This document shows positions 3,099-34,070 of a stretch of 37,345 nucleotides of DNA, piece by piece. The stretch is from assembly GCA_003724285.1 (NCBI GenBank), contig RHFB01000033.1, positions 1 through 37,345 of the forward strand. Direction: 5' to 3'. The notes under the pieces are model-generated. The model searched no databases and was not told the DNA's origin. It saw nothing but the letters and a program-made list of their open reading frames with translations. Position 1 is the first letter of the stretch; the number at the start of each line of letters is the position of its first letter. This DNA comes from Nitrosopumilus sp. H13 (GTDB lineage Archaea; Thermoproteota; Nitrososphaeria; Nitrososphaerales; Nitrosopumilaceae). The position numbers and the translations under genes were made by a program.

Positions 3099-4268
3099 AT
3101 GAGGGTCAAAATAGCCACGCGAAAATCAAGCCATACAAAAAAATTCGCAAAGCTGATCCTTGATGACGGCACAGTCCTTGAAGGGCAGGGATTTGGCAGT
3201 TCTGGCACCATCTTTGGCGAGATTGTCTTTAATACGGGGATGGTCGGATATGTAGAGGCCCTCACAGACCCCTCATACAGCGGCCAGATACTCACCCTCA
3301 CATACCCGCTTGTGGGCAATTACGGCGTGCCCGACCCGGAGGCGACTGACGCTGACGGCATCTCAAAATACTTTGAATCAGACAAAATCCATGCAAGGGG
3401 GCTTGTGGTGCACGAGCTCTCGCTGACTGCAAGCCACTGGAACCTTGCAATGACCCTTGATGAGTGGATGCACAAGGAGGGGATTCCGGGGATCTCCGGC
3501 ATTGACACGAGGACCCTGACCAAAAAGCTCCGCACGGGCGGCGTCATGATGGCCGCCCTGGCAGTGTCAGATACGGAGATTGACACAGGAAGCGTAAAAA
3601 AAGAGCTTGGCTCTGCTACGGGATACTCGGCAGAGCAGTTCATGGACGAGATATCCACAAAAGAGGCGCGCGCATTTGGGGACGGGAGGGAATGCATCGC
3701 AGTAATTGACACGGGCGCAAAAAACGCAATACTGCGCAACATCCGGGATCTGGGGTACAGGGCGGTCTTGCTGCCGTGGAACTCGACATATGAGGAGGTA
3801 ATCTCGCACAATCCAAGCGGCGTGGTTATCAGCAGCGGTCCTGGGGATCCGCAAAAATGCCCGGACACGATAGAGACTACAAAAATGCTGATTGCAAACA
3901 ATGTTCCAACGCTTGGCATCTGCCTTGGCGCGCAGATAATCGGCATAGCAGGCAACACTAAAACTTACAAGCTAAAGTACGGCCACCGCGGGCAGAACAA
4001 GCCGTGCATCAACCTTGAGAACAACCAGGTGTATGTGACGAGCCAGAACCACGGATACGGCATTACCCCAGAGTCCCTTGAAGAATCGGACTTTGACTTG
4101 TGGTTTACAAACGCAGACGACAAGACAGTCGAGGGGATACGGCACAAGACGCAGCGATGCGTCGCCGTGCAGTTCCACCCAGAGGCCTCGCCGGGCCCGT
4201 ACGACTGCCGCTTCGTCTTTGAAGAGCTCAAACGCCTTGTGGAGGAGGGATCGACTGCCAAAAAATGA
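3099..4268 (+). CDS. carA: carbamoyl-phosphate synthase small subunit (glutaminase)
   Basis: Class I GATase motif LGICLGAQIIG and QFHPEASPGP; N-terminal CPSase_sm_chain LILDDGTVLEGQGFG. Confidence 0.95.
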   Translation: MRVKIATRKSSHTKKFAKLILDDGTVLEGQGFGSSGTIFGEIVFNTGMVGYVEALTDPSYSGQILTLTYPLVGNYGVPDPEATDADGISKYFESDKIHARGLVVHELSLTASHWNLAMTLDEWMHKEGIPGISGIDTRTLTKKLRTGGVMMAALAVSDTEIDTGSVKKELGSATGYSAEQFMDEISTKEARAFGDGRECIAVIDTGAKNAILRNIRDLGYRAVLLPWNSTYEEVISHNPSGVVISSGPGDPQKCPDTIETTKMLIANNVPTLGICLGAQIIGIAGNTKTYKLKYGHRGQNKPCINLENNQVYVTSQNHGYGITPESLEESDFDLWFTNADDKTVEGIRHKTQRCVAVQFHPEASPGPYDCRFVFEELKRLVEEGSTAKK

Positions 4269-7200
4269 GACGTTGAAAAAAATTCTCGTGCTCGGCAGCG
4301 GGGCAATAAAAATCGGAGAAGCCGGCGAAAGCCGCTAAAACGGCCGCCAGTTTGACTACTCCGGAAGCCAGTGCCTCAAAGCCATCCGAGAAGATGGGCT
4401 CCAAAGCGTCCTTATCAACCCAAACATTGCGACAATCCAGACGGATACGAGGTTTGCAGACAGGGTATACCTTCTTCCGGTGACGCCCGAGTACGTCGAA
4501 TCGATAATCGAAAAGGAGCGGCCAGACGGAATCATGCTTGCATACGGGGGCCAGACTGCCCTTAACTGCGGCGTCAATCTAGACGGAGCAGGCGTGCTCA
4601 AAAAGTACGGAGTCGGCGTACTTGGAACCCAGATCCCGGGAATACAGAGCACAGAAGACCGGCAGCTCTTCAAGGATTCCATGAAGGAGGCAGGCGTGCC
4701 CGTGCTGAAGAGCCAGACCGTGACCAACTTTGAGGACGCAAAAAATGCAGCAGAGGCCCTCTCGTATCCTGTGATAGTCAGGGTCGCCTATACCCTTGGA
4801 GGGCGCGGCGGCGGCGTGGCATACAACGAGATAGAGCTGCACGAGATAGTAGAGCGCGGCCTCAAGGCAAGCCTCGTAGGCCAGGTATTAATTGAAGAGT
4901 ACATCGGCCACTGGAAGCAGATCGAGTACGAGGTGATGCAGGACTATGACGGCAATAATGTGATAGTGTGCAACATGGAAAACGTCCTGTCCATGAAGGT
5001 GCACACCGGTGACAACATCGTAGTGGCCCCGTCGCAGACCATAGACAACTCTGAATACCACATGCTGCGCTCCGCCGCCCTTCGCGCAACAAAGCACGTC
5101 GGAATAGTGGGCGAGTGCAACATCCAGTACGCCCTGGCCCCTGACTCTGACAAGTACGCGGCAATAGAGATAAACCCGCGCCTTTCGCGCTCCTCTGCGC
5201 TTGCAAGCAAGGCCACGGGATACCCGCTTGCATACATGTCCGCCAAGATCGGGATCGGATACGGCCTCCCGGAACTGGTAAACAGAATCACAAAAAACAC
5301 CACCGCCTGCTTTGAGCCCTCCCTTGACTATATAGTCTGCAAGCACCCGCGCTGGGACTTTGCAAAGTTTGAGCTGGTAAACCGGCGCCTCGGGCCCACC
5401 ATGAAGTCAGTCGGAGAGGTGATGGCAATAGGCCGTACGTTTGAAGAGTCGCTCCAAAAGTCGATACGCATGCTAGATATTGGCAATGACGGGCTCGTAC
5501 TAAACAGGTCTGACGGCTCCAAATACACGGAAGAAGAGATCGAAGACAAGCTTGCGCATCATGACGACATGATACTGTACTATGTGGCAGTGGCCCTGAA
5601 GATGGGGATCACAGTGGATCGGATATACCGGCTCTCCTCGATAGATCCGTGGTTTATAGAAAAGATTGCAAACATTGTCGCAGTCGAGTCCAAGCTGGCC
5701 CACTCGGAGCTTGACTCTGCCATGCTCTGGGAGGCAAAAAAGACGGGCTTTTCAGACAGGCAGATAGCCCGGGCCAAGGACAAGAGCCCTGATGAGGTGC
5801 GCAGCCTGAGAAAAAAGCTCGGCATCGTGCCTGCAGTAAAGCAGATAGACACGCTTGCAGCAGAGTGGCCTGCCGTGACTAACTATCTCTACATGACATA
5901 CGGGGGCGACTCGCACGATGTCGAGGTTCCAGACAGCAGGGGAATCGTGGTGGTGGGCGCAGGCCCGTACCGCATTGGCAGCAGCGTCGAGTTTGACTGG
6001 GGGACGGTAAACATGGTGTGGGGCCTGCAAGAAAACGGCGAGAAGAACATCACCGTGGTCAACTGCAATCCCGAGACCGTCTCTACTGACTATGACATCT
6101 GCACCCGGCTCTACTTTGAGGAGCTCACGCAGGAGCGGATACTGGACATTACAGAGTTTGAGAATCCAAAGGGCGTGATCACGTGCGTCGGGGGCCAGAC
6201 TGCAAACAACCTCACTCCCGGGCTTGCCGAGCGCGGAGTCCGCATACTGGGCACCGGGGCAGATGACGTGGACAGGGCCGAGAACCGCTCAAAGTTTAGC
6301 GCAGAGCTTGACAAGCTGCACATACAGCAGCCGCTGTGGCAGGCGTTTTCTGACCTTGCCGGCGCCAAGACCTTTGCGCACAAGGTGGGGTATCCGGTGA
6401 TTGTGAGGCCCTCGTACGTCTTGTCCGGGGCGGCCATGAAGGTCGTCTGGTCCCAGAACGAGCTCAAGAAATATGTGCAAGACGCCACCGATGTCTCGCC
6501 TGACCATCCCGTAGTGATATCAAAGTTCATGCTCGACTCGCTTGAAGTAGACGTCGACGGGGTCTGCAACGGAAAGCAGGTGATAATAGGCGCGATTGTA
6601 GAGCACATTGACAGCGCGGGAGTCCATTCCGGGGACGCAATGATGTGCATCCCGCCGTGGCGCCTCAACAACCGCATAATCGAGACCATCAACGACTATA
6701 CGCGAAAAATTGCGCTCACGTTTAACATCTGCGGCCCGTTCAACCTGCAGTTTCTAGTCCATGACTCCCATGTGTACGTGATAGAGCTCAACATCCGGGC
6801 GTCGCGCTCGATGCCGTTTGTCTCAAAGCTGGTAAGGACAAACCTCATCTCACTTGCATCCCGGGCGATTCTCGGCAGGACGCTGCCTGACATACCTGCA
6901 GACAAGTGGAAGAGGATACGCAACCACGGCATAAAGGTGCCCCAGTTCTCCTTTATGCAGCTTGACGGGGCAGACATTGCCCTGGGAGTGGAGATGCAGT
7001 CTACCGGCGAGGCCGCCTGCTTTGGAGACAGCTTTTATGACGCCCTCTCAAAGGGGCTGACCTCGGTGGGATACAACCTGCCCGAGCGCGGGACTGCGCT
7101 GGTAACGGTGGGAGGCGCTCCAAACAAGGAAAAGCTGCTGCCTGCGATAGCCCTGCTCAAGGGGCTCGGATTTGAGATACTTGCGACAGAGCACACCGCG

Positions 7201-7524
7201 GAATTCTTTGAGGAAAAGATAGGCCAGGTGAAAATAGTCCACAAGATATCAGAGCCTGAGCGAAAGCCAAACATCTCTGATCTGCTCTATGAGCGCAAGA
7301 TCGACTTTATCATCAACATTCCCAGCACCTCTACGCTTGAAAAGTACGTCGGGATGCTTGATGACGAGTACCAGATACGGCGCAAGGCGCTCGAGCTTGG
7401 CATCCCGGTGCTTACCACGATAGAGCTTGCAGACTCTTTTGTAAAGACGCTAGAGTGGCTCCGGGACAACGACACCACAAGGGAGCCGCTAGCCCCCTAT
7501 GATCCCCTAGACGACCCTGTCTAG
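4255..7524 (+). CDS. carB: carbamoyl-phosphate synthase large subunit, interrupted by a 21-nt insertion with an in-frame TAA; proposed join(4255..4329,4351..7524), probable CTG (4255) or TTG (4273) start
   Basis: 4480-7524 encodes the ATP-grasp/MGS body. In the same frame upstream: [25 protein letters not shown][SR*NGRQ][52 protein letters not shown], the conserved CarB N-terminus. Confidence 0.9.
4330..4350 (+). other. predicted 21-nt archaeal pre-mRNA intron (HBh' relaxed BHB motif) in carB
   Basis: Helix GGCG(4324-4327)/CGCC(4345-4348), 5' bulge AAA(4328-4330), inner helix GCCG(4331-4334)/CGGC(4341-4344), loop CUAAAA, 3' bulge AGU(4349-4351). Cuts at 4329|4330 and 4350|4351 restore GAA-TTT = E-F. 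Confidence 0.75.
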
Positions 7525-33162: not shown

Positions 33163-33537
33163 ATGCAGGATCCAAATCCGATTCCATGGGGTGCTCAGGA
33201 CAGGTTTCAGGCGCATTTCATCGTGAGAAAAGATCCGGGCACTTTTAAGGACTATGTCGCAAGGACGCGCCTGACCACCAGGGGCCACTTTGCCGCAAAG
33301 ACAGTCGACAAGGTGGGCTGGAACGGGGCAGGCAAGCTGGCAGTCGCGCTTGATGCCGATTCAGAGCTCAACGCAATGATTGCAAAACAGACAGTCCATG
33401 ACGCCACTATCTACATCGAGCCCACAGAGGGGGTCGTGCGCATACGCAGCAAGTGGGATAATCATATCGCGTTTGGGATCACAAAGGATCTCTACGAGAT
33501 TTATGACCGCATCGCCGGCCACATAAAGTCCATCTAG
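33163..33537 (+). CDS. conserved hypothetical protein
   Basis: 124 aa, 4 nt after the previous stop; likely co-transcribed. Confidence 0.6.
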   Translation: MQDPNPIPWGAQDRFQAHFIVRKDPGTFKDYVARTRLTTRGHFAAKTVDKVGWNGAGKLAVALDADSELNAMIAKQTVHDATIYIEPTEGVVRIRSKWDNHIAFGITKDLYEIYDRIAGHIKSI

Positions 33538-34070
33538 GCCTTCCACCAGTCAAGTGCCAGATATTCCACCCCTTTGCCGCTTGGCACGGCAAAGATAAAC
33601 TGCTTTTTAACCGTGGTTGCAAGCCTGCCTGCAAGTACCACCCCGGTGGACGTGACCGGCTCGCTCCGGTTGTAGACCCTGACCAGGTACGGCGCATGGT
33701 CTATTCCGGGCCCCTTTTCATACACTGCAAAGTCGCAGCCAAACTTTATCCCCGGATTTACAATGTACCCCTTGTCTCTAAAGTCCTTGTAGACCATGTA
33801 CTTTTTCTCAAAGTCATAGTGCTCGTTTTTGCATATCTCGCCTAATTTCTTTGCATCCATCTTTTTCTTTGCCCTGTGTATGGTGATCTTTTTGTTCTCT
33901 AGCAGGTACAGCCCTTCGATCAAATCCAGAACCAGCGGCGCGTCAATCTCCTCTACCTTTGGCTTTGGAATGCCTATCGGCTTGCCATAGTATCCCCCAC
34001 CGAACAGCTTTTTGGAATCCTCAATGTCCCATACGATGATCCTGTTCTCTATCAGCTCGCCTTTGATCAT
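33534..34070 (-). CDS. endA: tRNA-splicing (tRNA-intron) endonuclease
   Basis: FGCDFAVYEKGPGIDHAPYLVRV (catalytic Tyr/His) ... TTVKKQFIFAV (catalytic Lys) typical of EndA. Confidence 0.93.
   Translation of the reverse strand: MIKGELIENRIIVWDIEDSKKLFGGGYYGKPIGIPKPKVEEIDAPLVLDLIEGLYLLENKKITIHRAKKKMDAKKLGEICKNEHYDFEKKYMVYKDFRDKGYIVNPGIKFGCDFAVYEKGPGIDHAPYLVRVYNRSEPVTSTGVVLAGRLATTVKKQFIFAVPSGKGVEYLALDWWKA

Follow-up and report, generated by a model that had tools for sequence, protein, structure and literature searches.

A putative bulge-helix-bulge intron in the carB gene of Nitrosopumilus and its relatives

The carB gene of Nitrosopumilus sp. H13 is interrupted by 21 nt that we read, with a probability of about 95%, as an archaeal bulge-helix-bulge (BHB) pre-mRNA intron like that of cbf5. 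This reading was put forward in an earlier note on the same DNA. It is supported by matching inserts in hundreds of genomes, by insert lengths that are independent of the reading frame, by covariation, by constrained pairing at synonymous sites, by precise absence of the insert from relatives, and by the presence of genes for EndA and RtcB. Every comparative test able to refute it came out in its favour.

The carB locus and its relatives

The window (the whole stretch of DNA analysed, 37,345 nt) is contig C50 of a 1.18-Mb genome bin with 92 contigs and a completeness of 84%. Its carB gene lies on the forward strand, directly downstream of carA (3099 to 4268, forward strand; PF00988, PF00117), whose stop overlaps the carB start region. 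In relatives, the TTG or ATG start codon aligns with a CTG here, in a stretch (4256 to 4275) that also contains the carA stop TGA (4266 to 4268); TTG at 4273 is an alternative, and translation may in fact begin a few codons before it. The GC content of the whole window is 52.8%, yet carB third positions are strongly AT-rich in most genomes of the genus (GC3 about 0.2 to 0.4).

Counted from TTG 4273, exon 1 (4273 to 4329) ends in GGCGAA (4324 to 4329), encoding ...GEAGE. Exon 2 (4351 to 7524) starts with TTT, encodes FDYSGSQ at its beginning, contains CPSase_L domains and stays open to its end in the spliced frame. Between them, at 4330 to 4350, lies the putative intron, AGCCGCTAAAACGGCCGCCAG. 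Apart from these 21 nt, carB is a single open frame; TAA at 4336 to 4338 is the only in-frame stop ahead of the natural end at 7524. On re-reading, the insert, its stop and its flanks had been reported correctly in the earlier note.

Excision of 4330 to 4350 exactly restores the conserved E-F-D-Y-S-G motif and yields a CarB of 1076 aa with a terminal stop only. The N-terminal preATP-grasp domain PF25596, whose match (residues 2 to 118) spans the junction, scores 149 bits with the insert removed and 136 bits with it kept. The spliced segment aligns to residues 7 to 140 of Escherichia coli CarB with no gap at the junction, where the E. coli motif is ACEFDYSG. Frame, domain and alignment thus bear out the claim that in-phase removal of 21 nt restores E-F.

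The insert was sought in relatives with a pattern allowing 12 to 40 nt between GA[A/G]GCNGGNGA[A/G] and TT[C/T]GA[C/T]TA[C/T]TCNGG. Of the 401 genomes sampled from the order, 214 had a same-site insert, and the reversed control pattern gave no match in the 401 genomes among the matches listed. Comparison with carB of relatives had been proposed in the earlier note; its intron reading stands, and the insert is order-wide, not a one-off. Within the genus, where 96 genomes were searched at the protein level, 24 have an insert at exactly this site and most have an uninterrupted carB. The insert is also carried by 61 of the 70 genomes of one other family (36 of the 37 of good quality). Carriers include isolates, single cells, closed chromosomes and complete genomes of cultured ammonia oxidisers, among them Candidatus Nitrosotalea devanaterra (closed chromosome LN890280.1), Nitrosotalea bavarica, Nitrosopumilus salaria BD31 and Marine Group I single cells. 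Two of the closed carrier chromosomes are 2,833,868 and 2,954,373 bp long. Where relatives lack the intron, the exons are joined at exactly GAA/TTT.

A CarB tree of 144 rows requires about 12 gains or losses, at least 5 of them forced by well-supported branches; these numbers are rough because many branches are weakly supported. Together with the precise absences, they fit a single early gain followed by several exact losses; transfer of carB could mimic some of these. We take the intron to be ancient in the order, with clean loss in several lineages. Outside the order, one genome (G440, contig C32, about bases 1849 to 1897) contains an isolated carB bearing a version of 23 nt, and the other searched genomes of its family gave no CarB match; this copy may reflect transfer or a binning error. 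Because this sole carrier outside the order is isolated, the intron is dated to the order and no further, with its root within the class uncertain.

Structure and conservation of the predicted motif

Both the minimum free energy (MFE) and centroid folds contain the central helix H (GGCG at 4324 to 4327 paired with CGCC at 4345 to 4348), the 5′ bulge AAA (4328 to 4330) and the intron hairpin h′ (4331 to 4344; GCCG at 4331 to 4334 paired with CGGC at 4341 to 4344, loop CTAAAA), all as first described. The 3′ bulge is AGT (4349 to 4351), followed in the window by two more unpaired bases before the outer helix resumes; part of the carB intron set likewise has further unpaired bases there. By the EndA rule, under which each bulge is cut behind its second base, cleavage is predicted between 4329 and 4330 and between 4350 and 4351. 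These cuts coincide with the homology junction, and the agreement to the nucleotide that the earlier note reported holds without ambiguity in the window; a one-nucleotide shift is possible in 89 of 164 sequences. The carB insert thus has the 4-bp central helix, the 3-nt bulges on opposite strands and the junctions between bulge nucleotides 2 and 3 that define the cbf5 type. Both 4-bp helices occur at the required offsets in 11 of the 37,145 possible 21-nt intervals of the window, which corresponds to a chance of about 3 in 10,000 for the single interval that homology requires.

The motif had been called a relaxed HBh′ form with no outer h helix. An outer exon-exon helix does exist: it pairs 4313 to 4322 with 4354 to 4364 on the forward strand, is partly present in the MFE fold and is conserved, with 99.0% of cells paired in an alignment of 67 distinct sequences. 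Paired third codon positions are nearly invariant in its 5′ strand, and its 3′ strand is also under synonymous constraint. A further outer helix (GGGGC at 4300 to 4304 with GCCTC at 4373 to 4377) is 97.9% paired in the same alignment. The BHB assignment is therefore kept and the term relaxed dropped, since the outer helix is conserved; the carB motif lies nearer to a full hBHBh′ whose 3′ bulge is slightly enlarged.

Among 164 unique sequences, the inner three pairs of H are formed in 100% and the outermost in 87%, with G-A in the other 13%. Across the 101 listed introns, the only bulge triplets are AAA, AGA and AAT on the 5′ side and AAT, AGT and ATT on the 3′ side. All 101 have standard pairs at positions 1 to 3 of h′ (GC, CG, UA, AU and GU types), and 96 also at position 4. 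That makes 399 of 404 paired cells, whereas none of 1000 shuffles exceeded 348. In the 67 aligned introns, h′ is 100% paired and shows two-sided changes in three of its four pairs. The complete 22-pair structure is 98.6% paired across the 67 sequences, against 23 to 47% when partners are slid, and contains 56 two-sided changes, against 18.6 in shuffles. Covariation is strong for h′; H and the outer helices show one-sided changes only, as expected from coding constraint.

Since the outer helices consist of coding bases, their pairing was tested at synonymous sites. In the 24 carriers of the genus, third-position diversity is 0.04 at paired sites, 0.26 at nearby unpaired sites and 0.47 in codons +12 to +61. 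In AT-rich carriers, the GC3 value is 0.71 at paired third positions and 0.27 elsewhere. At the same sites, intronless genomes of the genus have a diversity of 0.33 and a GC3 of 0.14, and the constraint is absent. The further outer helix can form in 24 of 24 intron-bearing and 7 of 43 intronless genomes of the genus. An RNA structure across both exons is therefore under selection only where the intron is present.

Processing enzymes and alternative readings

In the predicted fold of the carA-carB transcript, the outer helix joins two exon segments and H joins exon 1 to the insert, with the two bulges on opposite strands. A splicing endonuclease, probably an (αβ)2 EndA, would cleave each bulge behind its second nucleotide (4329/4330 and 4350/4351), and RtcB would presumably ligate the exons to give CarB with ...GEAGE-FDYSG.... 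Cleavage, ligation and the role of EndA are what we infer; the carB intron very likely works as the cbf5 intron does.

A candidate processing enzyme is encoded in the window itself: endA, for a splicing endonuclease alpha subunit, lies at 33534 to 34070 on the reverse strand (PF01974, E value of 5.5e-30; PF02778, E value of 5.6e-19), and its product retains candidate catalytic Tyr, His and Lys residues as read from the sequence. Contig C33 encodes another EndA-type subunit, without an apparent catalytic His, and contig C23 encodes RtcB (PF01139); in total, the genome has two genes matching PF01974 and one matching PF01139. An α2-β2 EndA has been reported for Thaumarchaeota (PMC4090602), and the two EndA-type genes, judged by sequence, fit such an enzyme. 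(αβ)2 enzymes are the kind that is efficient on relaxed motifs (PMC6379350).

In-frame read-through or stop-codon reassignment would make the insert seven extra residues, as its length in the window, a multiple of three, allows. However, the inserts vary between 20 and 40 nt in length (20, 22, 23, 25 and 26 nt among them) and span all three frames (length modulo 3, 44/31/26 in the 101 listed introns). A stop is present in every one of the 90 inserts of 3n length among the 164 unique flanked sequences; the stop is TAA, TAG or TGA depending on the genome, and many relatives have no insert. A frame-shifting 22-nt version occurs in several complete genomes in which CarB otherwise shares about 90% identity with that of the window. 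With lengths in every frame, no stop-free 3n insert and this 22-nt version, neither read-through nor a seven-residue insertion explains the insert, and we give such readings almost no credence. An assembly error or recent pseudogene in a single metagenome bin might be suspected from the fragmentation of the source (92 contigs, 84% complete), but homologous inserts with intact CarB around them recur in hundreds of independent genomes. The artefact that the earlier note had allowed for is likewise countered by inserts in isolates and closed chromosomes, and the odds of an error of this kind are negligible.

The third alternative is programmed ribosomal bypassing, in which the insert is kept in the mRNA and ribosomes hop across it. 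Short hairpin-bearing inserts with stops are skipped in T4 gene 60 and in the mitochondrial byp elements, and bypassing accommodates any insert length. The take-off and landing codons are the same in 0 of 164 sequences, however, and the structure, bulges and frame-independent junctions obey the EndA rule. Bypassing needs no pairing across both exons, yet such pairing is constrained, and the host encodes both EndA and RtcB. We therefore regard bypassing as very improbable and favour the spliced intron.

Other loci, known introns and meaning

When 41 genomes were searched with a covariance model, carB was the sole locus found; the model is dominated by the conserved carB exons, so introns in other genes are possible despite the lack of matches. 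One intron locus is known per genome. Matches span about 60 nt at intronless carB and at least 81 nt at carriers. Although intronless, the carB genes of G267 and G265 match the intron model with 55 and 45 bits across 60 nt; their exon-exon helix looks retained after intron loss, or serves something else. Five bins (G098, G132, G203, G230 and G366) each have two carB intron loci on separate contigs, most likely owing to mixed strains, overlapping contigs or contamination. A biotin-carboxylase-like gene (accC/pccA) on contig C83 was considered as a second case, at 1498 to 1510 of locus L002, and rejected, as no insert is present: an in-frame TAG follows ...SADSMNL, and residues expected before VPTVPG are seemingly missing, which looks like a stop with a short deletion, or an assembly fault. 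Rfam models run over 4200 to 4500 with E values up to 1 gave no match to group I or II introns or other curated RNA families.

The closest known system is the cbf5 intron (Watanabe 2002; Yokobori 2009, PMC2738675), also a short BHB intron in a conserved protein gene with lineage-specific losses. In Desulfurococcales and Sulfolobales, cbf5 introns are 16 to 44 nt long, compared with 20 to 40 nt in carB, and are cleaved by EndA in a BHB-dependent manner; cbf5 of Cenarchaeum and Nitrosopumilus maritimus is intronless (PMC2738675, Table 1). Against that range, the suggestion that 21 nt would be among the smallest is roughly fair. The carB intron differs in its gene, in its mostly mesophilic hosts among the ammonia-oxidising Nitrososphaeria, in its extended exon-exon pairing and in being known here from sequence alone. 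Archaeal pre-tRNA and pre-rRNA BHB introns share the motif, the predicted cut rule and the enzymes, whereas the carB host RNA is an mRNA bound to a reading frame. The HVO_1309 BHB site of Haloferax (PMC7714728) is likewise an mRNA substrate of EndA, but it lies in an untranslated leader and the carB insert within coding sequence.

Archaeal protein-gene introns had been described as very rare, and a 2020 study of EndA substrates indeed counts one BHB intron within archaeal mRNA, that of cbf5 (PMC7714728). The earlier note knew of none in carB, and the open-access literature that we searched (subscription journals and preprints lay outside the search) describes none. With cbf5 the sole reported mRNA intron, no paper on a carB intron found and no Rfam family, carB is therefore very likely a second gene, in a new and much larger lineage, for the same kind of intron.

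An unspliced carB message stops after about 20 codons, so splicing could set the supply of carbamoyl phosphate in ammonia-oxidising archaea. That the intron has been retained as such a control point, through EndA/RtcB activity or folding of the exon-exon helix, is a speculative proposal that we think unlikely; if true, it would amount to regulated pre-mRNA splicing in archaea.

The finding would extend pre-mRNA splicing to mostly mesophilic, very abundant archaea and, across an order, to a central metabolic gene. In many genomes of ammonia-oxidising archaea, carB is probably mis-annotated as truncated or frameshifted, and the finding hints that further tiny introns in protein genes have gone unnoticed, being invisible to gene callers. 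The carB introns constitute a large natural data set on intron loss, and the cultured carriers offer an immediately testable system.
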